A stretch of DNA of 64,000 nucleotides from assembly GCF_019720895.1 (NCBI RefSeq), contig NZ_JAHKSH010000001.1:186001-250000 (forward strand). The letters run 5' to 3'. The stretch is from Microbacterium salitolerans (GTDB lineage: Bacteria > Actinomycetota > Actinomycetes > Actinomycetales > Microbacteriaceae). Numbering within the stretch: the first letter of the stretch is position 1; each line of letters opens with the position of its first letter. The notes beneath the pieces are model-generated. The model made no database searches. It saw nothing but the letters and a program-made list of their open reading frames with translations, and had not been told where the DNA came from. A program made the position numbers and the translations under genes. Positions 11,233 to 49,678 of the stretch are shown one piece after another.

Positions 11233-11351
11233 CCGGTGCGAATTCTCGCTCGGTCTCCGCATGCGCATGAGGGCGTGGCAGGGGATGCTCCTCCGATCGT
11301 TACGCGGCGTCGCCGCTCCGAATGTCGGAGGTCCGGCGTAGCCTCGGCCGC

Positions 11352-12215
11352 ATGAGATTCGGATTCATCGGAAGCTACGGCTCCCCGGAACAGCAAGTCC
11401 ATCTCGCCCGCGAGTGCGAGGCCCACGGGTGGGACGGGTTCTTCACCTGGGATGGGGTGAGTCTCGACGCGGGCGACTTCGACGCGGGTGCCACGTGGGA
11501 TCCGTTCGCCCTGCTCGGGGCGGCTGCGGTGGTCACCGAGCGCATCGCTCTCGGAGCGATGGTGTTCGCGCCTCCGCGGCGCCGCCCGTGGGAGCTCGCG
11601 CAGCAGGCGCTCACGGTCGACCACCTGTCGGGCGGGCGGCTGGTCCTGCCGGTCGGCACGGGCGTTCCGTTCGACAGGGCCTTCACCTCGGTGCCGGGTC
11701 AGCCGATCGCGCTGCGCGACCGCGCCCGCGCGCTCGACGAGGTGCTCGACTGGCTTGAGCGCTCCTGGTCGACCGAGACGTTCGCGTTCGAGGGCGAGCA
11801 CGTCGCGACGGGCGACTTCCAGTTCCCGCAGGCACCGGTGAACGGGCGGATCCCCGTCTGGCCGGTGGGTGTGTGGGATGCCGAGCGGCCGCCGCGCCGC
11901 AGTCTCGATCGCGCGTTGCGGTGGGACGGCATCGTGCCCCAGGTGCGGGGCGAATCCCCGGAGGACGCCGAGCCGTCGCCCGACGACATCACGGCGCTCG
12001 CCGGGTGGATCGCGGAGCACCGCGACGATGCGTCCGAGCCGTTCGACATCATCTACCAGGGGCGTCTCGACGCCGATCCGGCCGTCGCGGCCGATCAGGC
12101 GCGTGCGGCAGAAGAGGCCGGTGTGACGTGGTGGATCGAGTCCTGGTGGGATCCTGCGTCCGTCACCCCCGAGTTCCTCCTCGATCGCGCCCGCCAGGGT
12201 CCGCCGGCCGTGTGA
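11352..12215 (+). CDS. LLM-class F420-dependent oxidoreductase
   Basis: 287 aa. MRFGFIGSYGSPEQQVHLARECEAHGWDGFF is a luciferase-like TIM-barrel start; the barrel continues with VLPVGTGVPFD and a C-terminal AEEAGVTWWIESWWDP. Such proteins use F420H2 or FMN. The F420 operon on the opposite strand close by makes F420 likely, though the substrate is unknown. A TAGCCT -10 box (11339-11344) lies 7 nt before the ATG, so the mRNA is probably leaderless. Confidence 0.83.
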   Translation: MRFGFIGSYGSPEQQVHLARECEAHGWDGFFTWDGVSLDAGDFDAGATWDPFALLGAAAVVTERIALGAMVFAPPRRRPWELAQQALTVDHLSGGRLVLPVGTGVPFDRAFTSVPGQPIALRDRARALDEVLDWLERSWSTETFAFEGEHVATGDFQFPQAPVNGRIPVWPVGVWDAERPPRRSLDRALRWDGIVPQVRGESPEDAEPSPDDITALAGWIAEHRDDASEPFDIIYQGRLDADPAVAADQARAAEEAGVTWWIESWWDPASVTPEFLLDRARQGPPAV

Positions 12216-12876: not shown

Positions 12877-13713
12877 TCAGCGTGCGAGGGGCTCGCGCCG
12901 GCCGCTCTGCTGGCGCATGATGCGGTCGATCAGAGGGAAGTCAGCGCCGCGGACGGCCCCGAAGTAGTGCGCGTTGAGGTGGTCCGACGCGGCGGGCAGC
13001 TCGTCGCCCGCATCGTACGTGCGGTAGTCGCCTCCCGCGCGCTTGAGGATGAACGCGGCCGCGGCGACGTCCCACGGGCTCGCGCCGAGCGAGAACGTCG
13101 CGTCGGCCCATCCTGCTGCCACGTGACAGAGCGAGATCGCGCTGCTGCCGAACGTGCGCACGTGCGCGAAGGTCTCGAGCAGCTGCCCGAACGAGTCGAG
13201 GGCGTCGGCGCGGCGCACCCGGAGGTCGCGGTGCGACACGAAGCCCGGGACGATCGTCGCGCGCTCGGCGGTCGTCGCCCCTTCGGCGCGCAGCGGCTCG
13301 CCGTCGAGGAACGCCCCGCGCTCGTCGGCGCGGAACATCTGATCGGCGACCGGATCGTAGACGACGCCCGCGACGACCTCGCCGTCGATGGCCGCCGCGA
13401 CGCAGACCGTCCAGAGGGCGATTCCGCTCGCGAAGTTCGCCGTGCCGTCGATCGGGTCGATGTACCACGTGACCTCGCCGTCGCCCGTGGAACCGCCCTC
13501 CTCGCCGACGATGCGCGATCCCGGAACCTCGCGCTCGATGACCGCGCGCACGTGCTCCTCGCTGCGCTTGTCGAACAGCGTGACGGGGTCGTGGAAGTCC
13601 CGCTTCTCGTCGACGACGAGATCGCGAACCCGGAACCCTTCGAGAGCGATGGCGCCGGCGCCGCGCGCGGCGGTCTCGGCGATCTCCGCAAGGCGGACGG
13701 AGGTCGCGGTCAT
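12877..13713 (-). CDS. Inositol monophosphatase family phosphatase
   Basis: 278 aa. The metal-binding motifs are present: GEEGG near residue 73, WYIDPIDGTANFASG near 85-100, and the C-terminal GASPWDVAAAAFILKRAGG. The family includes inositol-1-phosphatase, histidinol phosphatase (HisN) and 3'-phosphoadenosine 5'-phosphate phosphatase; the sequence alone does not decide between them. It overlaps cofC by 4 nt (ATGA), so it belongs to the F420 operon; a role on a phosphorylated F420 precursor is a guess. Confidence 0.88.
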   Translation of the reverse strand: MTATSVRLAEIAETAARGAGAIALEGFRVRDLVVDEKRDFHDPVTLFDKRSEEHVRAVIEREVPGSRIVGEEGGSTGDGEVTWYIDPIDGTANFASGIALWTVCVAAAIDGEVVAGVVYDPVADQMFRADERGAFLDGEPLRAEGATTAERATIVPGFVSHRDLRVRRADALDSFGQLLETFAHVRTFGSSAISLCHVAAGWADATFSLGASPWDVAAAAFILKRAGGDYRTYDAGDELPAASDHLNAHYFGAVRGADFPLIDRIMRQQSGRREPLAR

Positions 13714-14354
13714 GCGGCGGTCGGATCCTCTTCGTCGGCGGTGCGCTGTCGAGACGCCTTCAGCAGCGCCGTCGTGCGGGGGCCGAGACCGAGCTCGGCC
13801 GCAGCGGTGAGCTGCTCGTAGGTGTCGACGTCGCGGCGCAGCGACGTCGCCGCGACGAGGTCGAGCGGCTCGTGCCCGGCTTCGCTGTGGTGGTGCGCCG
13901 AGTCGGCGCCGAAGTGCGACTCGAACGTCACGGGCGTGCGCCACGTGACGAGGGTGGAGCCGTGGCCCTCTTCGTCGCGGACGAAGGCGCGCTCGTGGTG
14001 TGCGGCGGCGTCGAGCGCGGCGTCGAGATCGGCGCTCGTGAGCGCGGGCAGGTCGCCGAGCATCGCCGCGCGAGGGGCCTGCTCCGCGCGCTCGAGGCCG
14101 GCGCGCACGGCGCCGTTGAGCCCCATTCCCGGGTCAGCGATCCAGCGCGCCGAGGGGATCAGGTCGACGCCCGCCTGCACATCGGCATCGCTCGTGACCG
14201 CGATGACCTCGTCGACGTGCGCCGCCTTCGCGGCCGCATCGATCGTGTCGAGGGCGATCGCGAGCGCCAGCCGCGGGCGATCCGTGCCCGGCAGATCCAG
14301 CCTCGACTTCCCTGCGGCGGTTGTCTTGACGGGGATGACGACGGACCACTTCAC
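13710..14354 (-). CDS. cofC: 2-phospho-L-lactate/phosphoenolpyruvate guanylyltransferase
   Basis: 214 aa. The nucleotidyltransferase start MKWSVVIPVKTTAAGKSRLDLP, DPGMGLNGAVRAGL and MLGDLPALTSADL are typical of CofC/FbiD. It activates 2-phospholactate or PEP with GTP to make the side chain of coenzyme F420. The start is GTG (14354-14352), overlapping the fgd stop as GTGA. A TAAGGT -10 box (14366-14361) lies exactly 6 nt before the GTG inside fgd, suggesting an extra internal leaderless promoter besides operon read-through. Confidence 0.92.
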   Translation of the reverse strand: MKWSVVIPVKTTAAGKSRLDLPGTDRPRLALAIALDTIDAAAKAAHVDEVIAVTSDADVQAGVDLIPSARWIADPGMGLNGAVRAGLERAEQAPRAAMLGDLPALTSADLDAALDAAAHHERAFVRDEEGHGSTLVTWRTPVTFESHFGADSAHHHSEAGHEPLDLVAATSLRRDVDTYEQLTAAAELGLGPRTTALLKASRQRTADEEDPTAA

Positions 14355-15364
14355 GAGGCCACCTTAGCGCGCAGCTTCGGCAGGACCTCGCGCCCATAGA
14401 GCTCGAGGAAGTCGGCCTGATCGTGGCCGGGGTCGTGGAAGACGAGGTGCGTGAACCCCATGTCCAGGTATGTCTGGATCTGCGCGATGTGATCGTCGGG
14501 GTCGTCCGAGACGATGAAGCGGCTCGCGGCGCGCTCGATCGGCAGCTCCTGTGCGAGCCGCTGCATCTCCATGGGATCGGACGTGCCCATCTTCTCCTCG
14601 GGTGTGAGGGCGAGCGGCGCCCAGAAGCGCGTGTTCTCGAGGGCCTTCTCGCGGTCGGGACGCAGCGAGACCTTCACCTCGAGCATGCGGTCCACGGATC
14701 CGGGCTCGCGGGATCCCTTCTCGAGGCCTTCCTCGAACGCGGGGAGGAGCTTGTCGGTGTAGAGCTCGGGCGCCTTGCCGCTCGTGGTGATCCAGCCGTC
14801 GCCCATGCGCCCCGCGAGGCGCGTCGCCGCGGGCCCGGATGCGCCGATGTAGATGGGCACCTCCTGGTCGGGGCGGTCGTAGATCGTCGCGCCCTTGACC
14901 GTGTAGTAGGTGCCCTCGTAGGTCACGCGCTCGCCCCGCCACAGCTCGCGGATGAGGAGGATCGCCTCCTTCATGCGCTGGAAGCGCTCGGGCGGATCCG
15001 GCCAGTTCTGGCCCAGCGTGACCTCGTTCAGCGCCTCGCCGGTTCCGACGCCGAGGATCATGCGGCCCGGGTAGAGCGACCCCAGGGTGCCGAACTCCTG
15101 CGCGATGACGCCGGGGTGATAGCGGAACGTGGGCGTGAGGACGGACGTTCCGAGCAGGATCGACGTCGTGGCCTCGCCGGCCGCGCCGAGCCAGGGGAGC
15201 GCGGCGGGAGCGTGCCCGCCCTCGTGCATCCAGGGCTGGAGGTGGTCGCTGAGGAAGACGGAGTCGAAGCCGTTCTCCTCGGCGCCGACGGCGTAGTCGA
15301 GCAGCTCGCGCGGGGCGAACTGCTCGGACGAGGCCTTGTAGCCGAATCGGAAGGGGACGGTCAT
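14351..15364 (-). CDS. fgd: F420-dependent glucose-6-phosphate dehydrogenase-like LLM enzyme
   Basis: 337 aa, the same length as mycobacterial FGD. Sequence features include FGYKASSEQFAPRELLDYAV, SDHLQPWMHEGGHAP, GVGTGEALNEVTLG and YIGASGPAATRLAGRMGDGWITTSG, which match the F420-dependent glucose-6-phosphate dehydrogenase family that reduces F420 to F420H2. Its place between a monooxygenase and cofC in the F420 operon supports a role in supplying F420H2. Both ends overlap neighbours by 4 nt. Confidence 0.88.
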   Translation of the reverse strand: MTVPFRFGYKASSEQFAPRELLDYAVGAEENGFDSVFLSDHLQPWMHEGGHAPAALPWLGAAGEATTSILLGTSVLTPTFRYHPGVIAQEFGTLGSLYPGRMILGVGTGEALNEVTLGQNWPDPPERFQRMKEAILLIRELWRGERVTYEGTYYTVKGATIYDRPDQEVPIYIGASGPAATRLAGRMGDGWITTSGKAPELYTDKLLPAFEEGLEKGSREPGSVDRMLEVKVSLRPDREKALENTRFWAPLALTPEEKMGTSDPMEMQRLAQELPIERAASRFIVSDDPDDHIAQIQTYLDMGFTHLVFHDPGHDQADFLELYGREVLPKLRAKVAS

Positions 15365-16950
15365 GGGATGACTCCTTCGTTCTGCAAGAGGGGCGCCCCA
15401 GAGGGCCTCGCGCGATCGAGCCGCGCACGGAAGTCAGCGACCGTGCCGGGCCACAGCAGGGCGAGCCTGCCGCTGCGATCGTCAACGTACCAGTTGATGC
15501 ACCCGCCGGTCAGCCACGGAGTACGGGCCGCGCGCGCGGACACATCGGCCGTCGACGCACGCTCCTCCTCGCCCGTGACGCGCACGGGATCCGGGAAGGC
15601 GAACGGCGCCGCGGCCCGCTCCGCGATCAGCGACGCGGCGAACTCCGCCTGCGCCTCGGAGATCAGGACCGACGAGTTGTGGCCGAGAGACGCGTTCGGG
15701 CCGTTGAGCACGTACATGTTCGGGAAGCCCGCGACGAGCGTCGAGGCCACGGCGGTCATCCCCGTCGCCCAGTGCGCGTCGAGCGTGGTGCCGCGTTCGC
15801 CCGTGACGAGGTGCGCGTAGGGCTGCCTCGTCGTCTCGAATCCCGTCGCGAGCACGAGCATGTCGGCCTCATACGCGGATCCGGATCGCGCCACGAGACG
15901 GGATCCGCGCACCTCCGCGAGCTCGGAGGGTTCGAGGACGACGGATCCGCTCGCGATCGCCGGGTAGAAGTCGTCGCTCAGGAGCACGCGCTTGCAGCCG
16001 AAGGCGTAGTCGGGCGTGAGGGCCGCGCGGAGCTCGGGATCGGGGACCTGGCGCGCGAGGTGGGCGAGCGCGACGTCGCGCATCGCGGACGCGGCGACCT
16101 CGTCCCCCGAACGCGAGGCGAAGCGGGCCTCGCCGTCGACGAAGAGGGCGTCGCGGTGGGCGGCGAGCGCGGCCGGGTCCTCGGCGAATCGCTGCCGATC
16201 GGCGGCGTCGACGGGGTGGTCCCCGCGGGGCACGATCCACGCGGGCGTGCGCTGGAACAGGGTGACGCGGGCGCCGCGACGAGCGAGTTCGGGGACGAGC
16301 TGGATCGCGCTCGCGCCCGTGCCGACGACGGCGATGCGGCGCCCCGCGAGGTCGTCGTGGGGCGCCGCGGCGTGGTCCCAGCGCGCGGAGTGGAACAGCG
16401 TCCCCCCGAACGTCGCGAGTCCGGCGATGTCGGGGATCCGCGGCTCCGTGAGGCGGCCGGCGGCCAGCACGAGATGGTCGGCGACGATCTCTCGCCTGCA
16501 TGACGACGGCAGATCGACGCCGGCTCCGCGTTCTCGGTCTCCCTTCTGCGGACCCGCTTCGGCGCTGCCGTCTTTGTGCGTCGGCGAGCTTGTTGAGATG
16601 CGCCAGGAGCCGCCGTCCCAGCGCGCGTCGGCCATCGTCGTGCCGAGCAGCAGGTGCTGGTCGAGGCGCTCATCGGCCACCACCCGCTCGAGGTAGGACT
16701 GGATCTCGGATCCCGGCGCGAACACGCGCGACCAGTGCGGCCACGGGTGCGAGGCCAGGCCGTAGAGGTGCGAGGGCACATCGCACGCGATGCCGGGGTA
16801 GGTGTTGTCGCGCCATGTGCCGCCGATGCGGCTCTCTCGTTCGAGGATGACGAACGACTCCACGCCCGCCTCGCGCAGCGCGAGAGCCTGTGCGATGCCC
16901 GCGAAGCCCGCGCCCACGATGACCGCGTCGACGTGCAGCGCGTCAGCCAC
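15361..16950 (-). CDS. Flavin-dependent (Baeyer-Villiger-type) monooxygenase
   Basis: 529 aa. Two Rossmann motifs (VIVGAGFAGIAQALALREAG; VVGTGASAIQLVPELARRGA) flank the Baeyer-Villiger fingerprint FxGxxxHxxxW (FGGTLFHSARWDHA). It probably uses FAD and NADPH to oxygenate a ketone or aldehyde; the substrate is unknown. The start is GTG (16950-16948), overlapping the fbiC end by 8 nt. Between WRIST and REIVAD there is an unusual hydrophilic segment of about 33 residues rich in Gly, Asp and Lys, encoded by a palindromic element (16505-16572). Confidence 0.88.
   Translation of the reverse strand: MADALHVDAVIVGAGFAGIAQALALREAGVESFVILERESRIGGTWRDNTYPGIACDVPSHLYGLASHPWPHWSRVFAPGSEIQSYLERVVADERLDQHLLLGTTMADARWDGGSWRISTSSPTHKDGSAEAGPQKGDRERGAGVDLPSSCRREIVADHLVLAAGRLTEPRIPDIAGLATFGGTLFHSARWDHAAAPHDDLAGRRIAVVGTGASAIQLVPELARRGARVTLFQRTPAWIVPRGDHPVDAADRQRFAEDPAALAAHRDALFVDGEARFASRSGDEVAASAMRDVALAHLARQVPDPELRAALTPDYAFGCKRVLLSDDFYPAIASGSVVLEPSELAEVRGSRLVARSGSAYEADMLVLATGFETTRQPYAHLVTGERGTTLDAHWATGMTAVASTLVAGFPNMYVLNGPNASLGHNSSVLISEAQAEFAASLIAERAAAPFAFPDPVRVTGEEERASTADVSARAARTPWLTGGCINWYVDDRSGRLALLWPGTVADFRARLDRARPSGAPLLQNEGVIP
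16505..16572. repeat. Palindromic element inside the monooxygenase gene
   Basis: Arms GACGGCAG (16505-16512) and CTGCCGTC (16565-16572) with nested CGCCG...CGGCG and CCGC...GCGG pairs. The element encodes part of a 33-residue low-complexity insertion in a position that is a tight turn in related monooxygenases. No stop or frameshift is introduced. Confidence 0.6.
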
Positions 16951-19273
16951 GGCTCACCTCGCCGTACGTCGTCGTGCGCCGCCGCAGCGGCCGGAACAGG
17001 GGCTTCAGGAGAGAGCGCGCCGCGTCGAGGGTCAGCTCCTGCCCGGCCTCGACGCCGCTGAGCGGTCCGACGCGGCCGTCGCGCAGCGTGCCGCCGAGAT
17101 CGTCGCCGCCGGCGTTCAGGAGCTCCGCGGTCGTCGCGAGGCCGTGGCGCGTCCAGGGCAGCTGGATGTGGGGGATCGAGCCGGTCAGCATCAGGCGCGA
17201 CACGGCCGCCATCGCGCGATGCTCGTCGAGATCGCGGCGCCCCTCGACGAGGGGGCGCCCCCAGCCCGGCATCGGGATCGGCACGAATTCGTTGAAGCCG
17301 CCGGTCTCCGCCTGGATCGCGAGCAGCGTGCGCAGGTGCGCGATGCGCTCGGCGGCCGTCTCGACGTGCCCGTAGAACAGCACCGACGTCGACGAGAATC
17401 CCGCGCGGTGCGCCGCGCGGATCGTCTCGACCCACCGGTCGATCTCGAGGTCGGACGGCATGATCTCGCGGCGCACGCGCTCGCTCAGGACCTTCACGCC
17501 CGTTCCGGGGACCGTGTCGACGCCCGCCTCGCGCATCGCGGCGAGGGCGCCGTCGAGGCCGAGTCCCGAGCGGTCGGCGAGGTCGGCGATGTCCTGCGGG
17601 CGGAACGCGTGCAGGTGGATCCGCGGGGCCGCGCTCCGGATCGTGCGCGCGATGTCGAGGTACGACTCGGGCGCGAGAGACGGATCCACCGTGCCCTGCA
17701 CGCAGATCTCGGTGAGACCCAGATCCTGCGCGTCGCGGGCCATGTCGGCGAGCTGCTCGAGGTCGTACCCGCCGGCGTCGGACGACCGGAACAGGGAGCC
17801 GGCGATGTTGCGATTGTCGACGATGCTCACGGCCTCGCCGACCGTGTAGCGGCGCACGTCGTCCGCCGTCTGCACGAGCGCCTCGAGCTCGTCGCCCGTT
17901 GCGGTGAGCAGACGTTCCCACTCGGTGTCGTCGAGCGACGCCGGATCCTGCGCCGCGCGCTCGATGACGGCCGCGATCAGCCCGCCCGGCGCGCTGAGGG
18001 TCGGCGTGTGGTCGGCGAGATCCTCGTCGGCGACATCGTGCCGCACCGTTCCCTCAGGGTGTGCGCCCTCGCGGGCGAGGCCCGACGGATCCGCCAGCGC
18101 GTCGACCGCGCCCCGCAGCGATTCATGGATCCACGCGTCGCCGAGGAACTCGGGGTGGGCCGTGAGGCGCTCGCGCAGCGTGAAGCCGAGCGCGCTCGTC
18201 TCGCGGGCGAGATCGTCGAGGTGCGGCCACGGCCGCTCGGGGTTGACGTGGTCGGCGGTGAGCGGCGACACCCCGCCCCAGTCGTCGGCGCCCGCGCGCG
18301 CGAGCAGCTCGAGCTCGACGACGTCCTGCAGGTTCGGCGGCACCTGCACGCGCATGCGCGGCCCGAACACGAGGCGCATCACGGCGACGGCCGCGACGTA
18401 CTCGAGCAGCTCGGCGTCGGGGACGTTCTGCATCGCCGTGCGCGGCTTCGCGCGGAAGTTCTGCACGATGATCTCCTGCAGGTGCCCGTGCCGCTCGTGC
18501 GCCTCGCGCAGGGCGATCATCGACTCGGCCCGGTCGCGGAGCGTCTCGCCGATGCCCACGAGGATCCCCGTCGTGAACGGGATCCTCGACGCGCCCGCGT
18601 CGTCGAGGAGCCGCAGCCTGACGTCTGGATCCTTGTCGGGGGATCCGTAGTGCACCTCGCCCTTGTTCTCGTACAGCACGCGGGACGTCGTCTCGAGCAT
18701 GATGCCCATCGACGGGGCGACCTCGCGCAGCCACGCGAGCTCGTCGGGGCGCATGACCCCGGGGTTGAGATGCGGGAGGAGGCCCGTCTCCTCCCGGATG
18801 AGCCGCGCCATCGCGCCGACGTAGTCGAGGGTCGACGTGTAGCCGTGCTCGTCCAACCAGGCGCGGGCCTCCGGCCAACGGTCCTCCGGCCGGTCGCCGA
18901 GCGTCAGCAGCGCCTCCTTGCACCCCTGCGCCTGGCCCTGCCGCGCGACCGCGAGCACCTGCGCGGGGCTCATATAGGCCGGCTTGCGCTTGGCGAGCAG
19001 CTGCCCCGGGGTGTCGACGAAGACGCAGTAGTGGCACCGGTCGCGGCAGAGCGTGGTCAGGGGGACGAACACCTTGCGCGAGTAAGTGATGATCCCCTCG
19101 CGTCCGGCGAGCCGCAGTCCCTCGTCGCGGGCGCGCGACGCCGCGTCGAGCACGCGCTCGAACTCCGCGCCCGTCGCATGCAGGAGAGCCTCGGCATCGT
19201 CGACGTCGAGGCGCTCGCCGCGGTCGGCGCGAGCGAGGGCGGCCGTGAGGGGAGACGGATCCAGGAGGGTCAT
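16943..19273 (-). CDS. fbiC: FO synthase FbiC-like (CofG-CofH fusion) with degenerate CofH half
   Basis: 776 aa. The N-terminal CofG half has an intact radical-SAM motif (CRDRCHYCVF) and CofG-type segments such as TLGDRPEDRWPEA and HLNPGVMRPDEL. The C-terminal CofH half is recognisable (EICVQGTVDPSLAPESYLDI, HLHAFRPQDI, YGHVETAAERIAHL, C-terminal RRRTTTYGE), but the segment after NRNI, where FbiC proteins carry the second CX3CX2C cluster motif, reads AGSLFRSSDAGGYDLE. The protein is also about 80 residues shorter than mycobacterial FbiC. It heads the F420 operon. The ATG at 19273 has no Shine-Dalgarno. Whether it still makes the full deazaflavin FO alone is doubtful. Confidence 0.88.
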   Translation of the reverse strand: MTLLDPSPLTAALARADRGERLDVDDAEALLHATGAEFERVLDAASRARDEGLRLAGREGIITYSRKVFVPLTTLCRDRCHYCVFVDTPGQLLAKRKPAYMSPAQVLAVARQGQAQGCKEALLTLGDRPEDRWPEARAWLDEHGYTSTLDYVGAMARLIREETGLLPHLNPGVMRPDELAWLREVAPSMGIMLETTSRVLYENKGEVHYGSPDKDPDVRLRLLDDAGASRIPFTTGILVGIGETLRDRAESMIALREAHERHGHLQEIIVQNFRAKPRTAMQNVPDAELLEYVAAVAVMRLVFGPRMRVQVPPNLQDVVELELLARAGADDWGGVSPLTADHVNPERPWPHLDDLARETSALGFTLRERLTAHPEFLGDAWIHESLRGAVDALADPSGLAREGAHPEGTVRHDVADEDLADHTPTLSAPGGLIAAVIERAAQDPASLDDTEWERLLTATGDELEALVQTADDVRRYTVGEAVSIVDNRNIAGSLFRSSDAGGYDLEQLADMARDAQDLGLTEICVQGTVDPSLAPESYLDIARTIRSAAPRIHLHAFRPQDIADLADRSGLGLDGALAAMREAGVDTVPGTGVKVLSERVRREIMPSDLEIDRWVETIRAAHRAGFSSTSVLFYGHVETAAERIAHLRTLLAIQAETGGFNEFVPIPMPGWGRPLVEGRRDLDEHRAMAAVSRLMLTGSIPHIQLPWTRHGLATTAELLNAGGDDLGGTLRDGRVGPLSGVEAGQELTLDAARSLLKPLFRPLRRRTTTYGEVSRG

Positions 19274-19382: not shown

Positions 19383-19772
19383 ATGACTCGGCTGCTCGTG
19401 GATTCCGACACCTTCGAGGTGCAGCTCGCTCCCGCGGAGCGACTGCTCGCCCTGCGCAAGGAGAGCGTGCGCGTCGACCGCGCGCACATCGCCAAGGTGC
19501 AGCTGACGGAGGAGCCGTTCACGTGGCTGCGCGGCGTCCGCGCGCCCGGATCTCACATCCCGAATGCGCTCGCCTACGGCACGTGGCGCTCGGTGTTCGG
19601 CAACGACTTCGCCGCCGTGCGCAAGGGGCGGCCGGGCGTCGTGATCGACCTCGAGGGCGACGAGGACTTCGCCCGCATCGTGGTGTCGACCAACCACGGC
19701 CTGGCGCTCCTCAAGGCGCTTCAGCGCGAGGGCGTCGACACCGGAGACGTCGCCGACCTCGACGCGGAGTAG
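19383..19772 (+). CDS. Conserved small protein of unknown function (PH-like fold suspected)
   Basis: 129 aa, soluble, no signal peptide. It starts MTRLLVDSDTFEVQLAPAERLLALRKESVRV and contains WLRGVRAPGSHIPNALAYGTW and VVIDLEGDEDFARIVVST. The alternation of short beta-like segments and one C-terminal helix recalls bacterial PH-like proteins that start with a hydrophobic mobile loop; I do not recognise a specific family. A CAGGAT box lies 6 nt before the ATG with no Shine-Dalgarno, suggesting a leaderless transcript. It is divergent from fbiC and convergent with the ABC ATPase gene. Confidence 0.7.
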   Translation: MTRLLVDSDTFEVQLAPAERLLALRKESVRVDRAHIAKVQLTEEPFTWLRGVRAPGSHIPNALAYGTWRSVFGNDFAAVRKGRPGVVIDLEGDEDFARIVVSTNHGLALLKALQREGVDTGDVADLDAE

Positions 19773-22844: not shown

Positions 22845-23687
22845 ATGGTGAGCAGGAAAGACTTCGGAACCTACGGCGTGTGGCTGTGGGAGGGCGCGTG
22901 GACGCCGGGGACGGCGGCAGTCGCCGAACGGCTCGGCTACGGCACGCTGTGGATCGGCGGGTCCCCCGATGCCGATCTTGCGAGCGTCGAGGCCGTGCTC
23001 AACGAGACCGAGCACGTCACGGTCGCGACCGGGATCGTCAACATCTGGAAGTCGGACCCCCTCGATGTCGCCGCCTCGTACCTGCGGATCGCCGACGAGC
23101 ACCCCGGCCGCTTCGTCGTCGGCATCGGCTCCGGGCACCGCGAGGCGTCGCCCGAGCGCGTCAGGCCGCTGGCAGCGCTGAAGGAGTACCTCGACGTCTT
23201 CGACGCCGAGGGCGTCCCCGCCGACCAGCGCCTGCTCGCGGCGCTCGGCGACAAGACGCTCGCGCTGTCGGCCGAGCGCTCACTCGGCGCGCACCCGTAC
23301 CTCACGACGCCCGCGCACACGGCGCACGCGCGGCAGATTCTGGGCGATGCCCTGCTGGCCCCCGAGCTGAAGATCTCGCTCGACGCCGACCAGGAGACGG
23401 CCCGGATGGCGGCGCGGGCGTACCTCAAGAAGTACTTCCGCCTCGAGAACTACGTGAACGCGCTCCAGCGCTTCGGAATCGAGGCGAGCGCGTTCGACGA
23501 CGGCGGATCCGACGAGCTCATCGACATCGTCGCCGCGAACCCCTCGGCGACAGCGGCGGCCGCGGGCCTGCAGCGGCACCTCGATGCGGGAGCCGACCAC
23601 GTCAGCGTGCAGCCGATCGGGAGCGACGTGCTCGGCACGCTCGAGCAGGTCGCCGACGTGATCGGCCTCACCGACGACGTGGCCTGA
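22845..23687 (+). CDS. LLM-class F420-dependent oxidoreductase (TIGR03620-like)
   Basis: 280 aa. FGTYGVWLWEGAWTPGTAAVAERLGYGTLWIGGS at the N-terminus and VVGIGSGHREASPERVRPLAALKEYLD are typical of an actinobacterial LLM subfamily that uses F420. Substrate unknown. The ATG at 22845 has GAGGAGGAC upstream with normal spacing, so unlike many neighbours it has a leader. It is followed by an array of palindromic repeats. Confidence 0.83.
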   Translation: MVSRKDFGTYGVWLWEGAWTPGTAAVAERLGYGTLWIGGSPDADLASVEAVLNETEHVTVATGIVNIWKSDPLDVAASYLRIADEHPGRFVVGIGSGHREASPERVRPLAALKEYLDVFDAEGVPADQRLLAALGDKTLALSAERSLGAHPYLTTPAHTAHARQILGDALLAPELKISLDADQETARMAARAYLKKYFRLENYVNALQRFGIEASAFDDGGSDELIDIVAANPSATAAAAGLQRHLDAGADHVSVQPIGSDVLGTLEQVADVIGLTDDVA

Positions 23688-48533: not shown

Positions 48534-49487
48534 TCAGCCGAGCGTGACGCAGGCGCGTGTGCCGACGTGGGCGAAGCGATCCTCGAGCGCCGCGCGCAGG
48601 TCGGCCGGCTCGCAGAACGTCGCGAAGGCGTTCATCATGTCGTCGGTGATGATCGACCCCATCGTGTCCCACTCGCCGCGCCGGCTGGCGGCGTGCAGCG
48701 CATCGGCCGCGTCCTCCCAGCCGTGCAGCGCGAGGACGGGGCGGTACGACGGAGTGGATCCGTAGAACGCGATCTGCGAGCGCACGGCCTTCTCCATCTC
48801 CGCGCGCTCCTGCGCGCTTCGGCCCGTGACGACGAACGGCGTGAGGATGACGTCGGTCGCGGCGCGGTCGGTGCGCGCCCGCCCCTCGGCGAGTGCGGGG
48901 AGGCTCACCTCGGTGAGGTAGTCGGGCGTCGTGAAGGCGTGCGCGATGAAGCCGTCGGCGGCCTCGCCCGCGAGCTTCGTCATTGCGGGGCCGACGGCCG
49001 CGAGCCAGATGTCGGGCGCGCCGTGCGGGTTCGGCCCGGGGCTGAACATCGGCGTCATGAGCGTGTGCCGGTAGTGCTCGCCGCGCACGTTGAGCCGCTC
49101 GCCCGTCTCCCACGAGTGCCAGATGGCGCGCACGGCGGCGATGAACTCGCGCATGCGCGGCGCGGGAGCGGACCACGGCATCGAGAACCGCTTCTCGATG
49201 TGCGGCTGCACCTGCGACCCGAGGCCGAGCGAGAACCGCCCCTCGGAGGCGAGCTGCACGTCGTTGGCCGACTGGGCGACGGTCATGGGGTTGCGGGCGA
49301 AGGCGACCGCGATGGACGTGGCCGTGTGGATCCGCTCCGTCGCGGATCCCGCCAGGGCGCACGCCATCAGCGGATCGTGGGCGAGCTCCGGCACCTGGAT
49401 CCCATCGAAGCCCTCGCGCTCGGCGCGGGCGGCGGTGGCGAGAACGGCGGACGGGGCGGCGTCGCGGATTCCGAGGTCGATCTGCAT
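48534..49487 (-). CDS. LLM-class F420-dependent oxidoreductase
   Basis: 317 aa. MQIDLGIRDAAPSAVLATAARAEREGFDGIQVPE, ASEGRFSLGLGSQVQPHIEKRFSMPW and AAVGPAMTKLAGEAADGFIAHAF are typical of an actinobacterial F420-dependent LLM subfamily. Substrate unknown. A CACACT box lies 7 nt before the ATG at 49487 and there is no Shine-Dalgarno. Confidence 0.85.
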   Translation of the reverse strand: MQIDLGIRDAAPSAVLATAARAEREGFDGIQVPELAHDPLMACALAGSATERIHTATSIAVAFARNPMTVAQSANDVQLASEGRFSLGLGSQVQPHIEKRFSMPWSAPAPRMREFIAAVRAIWHSWETGERLNVRGEHYRHTLMTPMFSPGPNPHGAPDIWLAAVGPAMTKLAGEAADGFIAHAFTTPDYLTEVSLPALAEGRARTDRAATDVILTPFVVTGRSAQERAEMEKAVRSQIAFYGSTPSYRPVLALHGWEDAADALHAASRRGEWDTMGSIITDDMMNAFATFCEPADLRAALEDRFAHVGTRACVTLG

Positions 49488-49678
49488 GAGGAACAGTGTG
49501 ACGAACCGGCGCCCGGCGCGCGCGGACGTTGTCGAGCGGTCACAACGACCCTGACGGGCAGAACTGCCCATGGTGTGGATTCGGACGCGCGCACAGCGGC
49601 GGATAAGTTGGACCCCGGTGAGAGGGGGAGCTCGCCGCACCGGACAACTCTGACTCCTCCGCGATCTCGGAGGATCCT

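Follow-up and report, generated by a model that had tools for sequence, protein, structure and literature searches.

The fbiC gene of Microbacterium salitolerans encodes a protein whose CofH half has no CX3CX2C motif, and one dedicated clade of flavin monooxygenases accompanies this motif-less FbiC. Together, the two genes probably encode a modified FO synthase, with an O2-dependent step in place of the radical CofH step. The CofH half without CX3CX2C is called CofH* here, and the variant protein and gene are called FbiC* and fbiC*; the window is the whole stretch of 64,000 nucleotides of M. salitolerans DNA that was analysed. The following features in the window define the locus:

16943..19273, minus strand: fbiC*, 776 aa, with a CofG half and a cluster-less CofH half
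19025..19048, minus strand: CX3CX2C motif of the CofG half, CRDRCHYC, intact
16946..17881, minus strand: CofH* domain, a predicted radical-SAM-type barrel without the cluster motif
17756..17815, minus strand: site of the absent CofH cluster loop, which reads NRNIAGSLFRSSDAGGYDLE
15361..16950, minus strand: Type I Baeyer-Villiger-type flavin monooxygenase (BVMO), whose frame shares 8 bases with the 3' part of fbiC*
16375..16410, minus strand: BVMO fingerprint FxGxxxHxxxWD, FGGTLFHSARWD, aa 181-192 (coordinates computed)

The CofG half retains CRDRCHYC (nt 19048-19025), as the initial annotation had stated, and matched the CofG model TIGR03550 with 462.9 bits (cut-off 213.35); judged by its sequence, it is an ordinary radical-SAM enzyme. 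In alignments with canonical relatives, all three CofH cysteines were gone at NRNIAGSLFRSSDAGGYDLE. The absence of the cysteine motif from the CofH half, noted in the initial annotation, is thus real, and it was found to be conserved among the variants. The motif was indeed lost within an in-frame deletion, although the size of about 14 residues first given for it has to be corrected, since our own count gave about 12 residues fewer than in the canonical relatives. The change from QGG to QGT and the loss of the HQN segment, also described earlier, were both visible in the alignment, the latter as an absent H-N-S-P segment. CofH* and canonical CofH also differed at other positions, each fixed within its own group; examples are HAFSP, replaced by HA-Y/F-RP, and the EE that follows GGTL, replaced by DG. 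The CofH score of FbiC* (TIGR03551, 291.5 bits) fell below the cut-off of 374.1, and the CofGH score (NF006687, 910.2 bits) below that of 1018. FbiC* is therefore not a canonical FbiC: the CofG CX3CX2C is present, the defining CofH CX3CX2C is absent, and the curated scores are not reached. When the model of CofH* was compared with known folds using VIA-align, the barrel fold of the radical-SAM CofH/MqnE superfamily was recovered; the [4Fe-4S]-binding cysteine triad of that superfamily is missing. CofH* thus lacks the [4Fe-4S]/SAM machinery, and according to the alignments and the model it keeps the predicted barrel and a conserved pocket.

An FbiC match was found in 54 of the 99 genomes of the genus Microbacterium. 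Translation of the best-scoring 30 of these 54 matches showed the CofG motif in 30/30 and the CofH motif in 0/30. Neighbourhoods were collected for all 54 genus loci, for 26 of 47 variants from other genera and for 14 of 18 canonical loci; the 82 variant entries in this set include three fragmentary ones and one that consists of CofH* only. The late (CofH-half) motif occurred in 0/82 variant neighbourhood entries and in 0/80 variant loci of a named collection, compared to 14/14 canonical controls. Among 299 Microbacteriaceae genomes, the CofH profile identified 68 carriers, 50 of the variant and 18 of the canonical type, with a bimodal distribution of scores (canonical 511-527 bits, variant 147-332 bits). 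Each of the 68 genomes had exactly one CofH-type match, so the two types are mutually exclusive, and CofG was detected in the same 68 genomes. Both types can nevertheless occur within one genus: in genera g12 and g77 some species had the variant and others the canonical form, and in genus g125, outside the family, G494, G609, G660 and G737 were variant while G636 and G627 were canonical.

In the Microbacteriaceae genomes, a monooxygenase gene was located downstream of fbiC* on the same strand and within 3 kb in 48/50 variant genomes, compared to 0/18 canonical ones. The fetched neighbourhoods gave a similar picture (80/82 variant entries versus 0/14 canonical), as did genomes outside the family, where the monooxygenase was linked in 5/5 variants and in 0/39 canonical loci, many of them short-flanked. 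All 80 loci of the named collection, a set picked by likeness to the variant, had the linked gene. A monooxygenase tree was built from 41 linked copies and 20 non-adjacent copies (19 of the 23 non-adjacent family copies and one of G301). All 41 linked copies fell into a single clade with a support of 100/100, together with one row scored as non-adjacent, from G273. This row lies on a 3.2-kb contig with the C-terminal end of CofH* directly upstream, and is thus linked too; for the other 19 non-adjacent monooxygenases, the surrounding 2.6-3.0 kb contained no CofH*-like sequence. CofH* and the monooxygenase are thus associated at the gene level.

In 15 of 168 variant entries, a set in which certain genomes occur twice, fbiC* and the monooxygenase gene were separated by a same-strand alpha/beta-hydrolase gene, compared to 0/53 canonical entries (L236, L242, L241, L245, L145, L146, L149, L154, L157, L160, L161, L165, L167, L247, and L143; a weak match in L150 was excluded). 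The hydrolase of L149 has no GxSxG serine motif, and the homologues in the M. salitolerans genome are weak (best 36.5 bits). With only 15 of 168 variant entries having the gene, the hydrolase was ruled out as an essential part of the system.

The monooxygenase of the window carries the Type I BVMO fingerprint FxGxxxHxxxW[PD]. Among the linked monooxygenases, the core of the fingerprint was present in 78/80, all except L175 and L192, and its strict form in 71/80. The best solved relative was phenylacetone monooxygenase (PAMO), an enzyme that reportedly makes benzyl esters. D57 and R321 of the window protein align with the catalytic residues D66 and R337 of PAMO, and are invariant in 33/33 sequences. 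By the criteria of sequence and predicted fold, the protein is a Type I BVMO, predicted to use NADPH and O2 and to insert oxygen next to a carbonyl. Known Type I BVMOs, PAMO among them (PDB 1w4x, 5m0z), serve catabolism or secondary metabolism, whereas the fbiC*-linked clade is tied to FO synthesis genes.

Two gene arrangements indicate that CofH* and the monooxygenase stay paired when CofG is separate. G526, a member of a different family, has an individual gene for each of CofH*, the monooxygenase, and CofG; the three follow one another on a single strand, with spacings estimated from the alignment at about +33 and -15 bases, and the CofG clustered with the canonical CofGs of its own family (support 100/97 and 100/99) in a tree of 74 rows, from which L300 and L063 had been left out. 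In G252 (also L241, 3FA27C10), CofG lies alone on one contig, and a second contig carries CofH*, a hydrolase, and the monooxygenase side by side. The nearest CofG by identity was a canonical one (79%), and the larger tree placed the G252 CofG with the canonical CofGs (83/94), whereas a smaller tree of 50 rows placed it at the base of the variants; because of this disagreement, G252 is a weaker case than G526. The CofG tree contains three label changes, two of which are forced by well-supported branches, the variants otherwise forming largely one lineage. A pair test on this tree cannot reach significance; the evidence for module swapping is strong in kind, without being a statistical test.

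The initial annotation had considered that a stand-alone CofH might exist elsewhere, or that the gene might be a decayed paralogue next to an intact copy. Neither proposal was supported by the M. salitolerans genome (3.46 Mb in 21 contigs, with a stated completeness of 100%), which encodes a single FbiC. A search with the CofH profile returned no second CofH; besides FbiC*, there was one weak match (E 0.0165), located within a different radical-SAM gene. Eight radical-SAM genes were found in total: FbiC*, MoaA, MiaB, MftC, HemW-like, Rv2578c-family, LipA, and RlmN. The mycofactocin maturase MftC, the Rv2578c-family protein and RlmN were confirmed with profiles, and the remaining four are what we take, by recognition, to be MoaA, MiaB, a HemW-like protein and LipA, so the other radical-SAM genes are of a different kind. 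A decayed paralogue was also ruled out by the single CofH-type match per genome, in FbiC carriers too, and a sequencing or assembly error by the same loss in all variant entries across many genera. The ratios of pN/pS from four pairwise comparisons (CofH* 0.29-0.53, CofG 0.21-0.40, monooxygenase 0.27-0.59) indicate purifying selection on all three. In one genome with a stated completeness of 68% (L078, G091), stops break the fbiC*-monooxygenase locus into several frames, which probably reflects sequencing errors. The MftC named above, at G000:C14:434191-434640 (L037) in the Microbacterium-type genome analysed here, scored 654 bits against TIGR03962 (cut-off 265).

Downstream of the monooxygenase gene, the window contains two further genes of F420 metabolism:

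14351..15364, minus strand: fgd, overlapping the monooxygenase gene by 4 bases (462.5 bits, cut-off 420)
13710..14354, minus strand: cofC, phospholactate guanylyltransferase type, overlapping fgd by 4 bases (122.2 bits, cut-off 105)

The operon of fbiC with fgd and cofC that had been recognized initially was confirmed in this way, and the monooxygenase gene, which had been overlooked, lies additionally between fbiC and fgd. The coupling does not in general include fgd and cofC: in the regions fetched for 26 variant loci of other genera, a same-strand fgd was found in six and cofC in none. CofD was present in 49/50 variant genomes of the family, and CofE in 63/99 genomes of the genus, including all 54 with FbiC*. 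Of the 45 genus genomes that lack FbiC, however, 9 have CofE, and 64/299 family genomes have CofD with no CofG or CofH scoring above the threshold applied, which means that these tail genes support FO synthesis but do not prove it. Genomes with CofD or CofE and without FbiC may rely on FO uptake or on another route to FO. In the open-access literature searched, no measurement of F420 or FO in a carrier of fbiC* was found. FbiC* in all likelihood functions as an FO synthase. It resembles FbiC and the CofG-CofH pair in the order of its two predicted barrels, the intact CofG half, its presence in genomes that have cofD and cofE, and, within Microbacterium, the linkage to fgd and cofC. It differs from them in a CofH* that has no CX3CX2C, lacks the second glycine of QGG and is some 12 residues shorter, and in its coupling to a monooxygenase. 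MqnE, the aminofutalosine synthase (PDB 6xi9), is likewise a radical-SAM enzyme, whereas CofH* has no cluster motif.

In the canonical route, as described in PMC8498797, CofH converts tyrosine to a p-hydroxybenzyl radical that adds to ribitylaminouracil, the adduct is oxidised by the cluster, and ring closure is left to CofG, the intermediate apparently passing between the CofH and CofG domains by diffusion. The strict linkage and the module swapping suggest that in the variant the monooxygenase takes over the chemistry of the tyrosine radical step. We tentatively propose a Baeyer-Villiger O2 route to FO, in which the dedicated monooxygenase may make a precursor of a p-quinone methide and the cluster-stripped barrel may act as a non-radical enzyme forming the C-C bond. 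The monooxygenase, using O2 and NADPH, would act on a tyrosine-derived carbonyl compound, with 4-hydroxyphenylpyruvate and 4-hydroxyphenylacetaldehyde as candidate substrates, and would yield a 4-hydroxybenzyl ester, the product expected from BVMO chemistry on either compound. Loss of the carboxylate from this ester would give the p-quinone methide, which CofH* would join to the nucleophilic C5 of 5-amino-6-ribitylaminouracil. The resulting adduct would equal the canonical one, oxidation level included; closure of the ring to FO by CofG would follow, and CofC, CofD, and CofE would make F420. The alpha/beta-hydrolase encoded between the two genes in some loci fits an ester intermediate, as in known BVMO-esterase pairs. 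From the genes, then, we infer the substrate of the monooxygenase, the activity of CofH*, and the need for O2.

An unlikely alternative, in line with the different product that the initial annotation had suggested, is that the product is a modified deazaflavin, with the monooxygenase and CofH* feeding another aromatic partner to CofG and with CofD and CofE tailing that product. The group-fixed differences between CofH* and canonical CofH would agree with this, as would the entry of a new enzyme into the pathway. However, the CofGs score alike (variants 438-468 bits, canonical 430-472 bits, the fragmentary G294 excluded) and the CofG beside CofH* in G526 is of the canonical type, which suggests that CofG probably still acts on its usual substrate; moreover, the operon contains a normal Fgd. 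Quinone methides are readily attacked by nucleophiles, and a donor made by the monooxygenase might alkylate the uracil non-enzymatically; alternatively, both steps might be carried out by the CofG half, whose motif is conserved throughout, with its one cluster. In either case CofH* would serve as a mere scaffold, which we consider rather improbable, since CofH* has 62 invariant columns among 35 mostly Microbacterium sequences and 35 among 29 more diverse ones, which is much for a scaffold, and remains with the monooxygenase where CofG is separate.

It is also conceivable that FbiC* is non-functional and that its carriers import FO made by their neighbours. The family genomes with CofD and without CofG or CofH do suggest that salvage or another route may exist; against this, purifying selection acts on CofG, CofH*, and the monooxygenase, and the three have been kept together in several families, which makes this reading highly improbable. 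Least probable of all, and hardly to be expected, is that the monooxygenase is merely co-transcribed with fbiC* and uses or modifies F420 in an unrelated role, while an unlinked enzyme performs the lost CofH step. BVMO-type relatives are common, with a match in 77/299 family genomes, some of which have no FbiC, yet none was found beside canonical fbiC in any of the three comparisons (0/18, 0/14, 0/39), although those hosts presumably make and use F420 as well.

For the proposed O2-dependent FO synthase, the closest precedents are ThiH/ThiO and HemN/HemF, pairs in which a radical-SAM step of cofactor synthesis is replaced in aerobes by an O2-using enzyme. The likeness lies in the putative replacement, and the exclusive distribution with respect to the radical-SAM form that marks replacements of the ThiO/HemF kind was found across the 68 family genomes. 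The difference is that the old radical-SAM barrel appears to be retained without its cluster rather than discarded, and that its partner is a BVMO. In a large actinobacterial group, one of the two radical centres is missing and a linked oxygenase is present instead, which is at odds with the statement that FO synthases universally use two radical steps. If the proposed route is true, a widespread cofactor would be made by a new chemistry, nature would provide a case of a radical-SAM barrel that has become non-radical, and F420 synthesis would perhaps tolerate oxygen better. The oxygen sensitivity of FO synthase has been suggested as a limit on production in PMC11917521. The portions of the open-access literature covered, including parts of PMC8498797, PMC3288000, PMC6279831, and PMC11917521, contain no description of a cysteine-less CofH or of a monooxygenase in FO synthesis.

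Further genes of the window include possible F420 users. The count of four LLM-class enzymes in the initial annotation was reproduced, as fgd and three luciferase-like frames all score above the Pfam cut-off:

11271-12212, plus strand: luciferase-like frame (PF00296), possible F420 user
22845-23684, plus strand: luciferase-like frame (PF00296), possible F420 user
48537-49676, minus strand: luciferase-like frame (PF00296), possible F420 user
19383-19772, plus strand: 129-aa protein, divergent from fbiC*

Some database records deserve separate mention. Two actinobacterial-type fbiC*-monooxygenase loci come from entries titled Planococcus sp. APC 4015 (L201) and Acidobacteria bacterium MAG (L247), which are probably mislabelled or mixed assemblies. 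Two fbiC*-monooxygenase pairs were found under the single genome record of M. ureisolvens HU12 (L187 and L190), and two more in one record (L052 and L089, G079) with 5% contamination and 700 contigs, possibly a mixed assembly. Finally, the 129-aa protein resembles, by eye, a family that 29 of the genus's variant loci encode in this position; the copy in the window fell outside the computed group.
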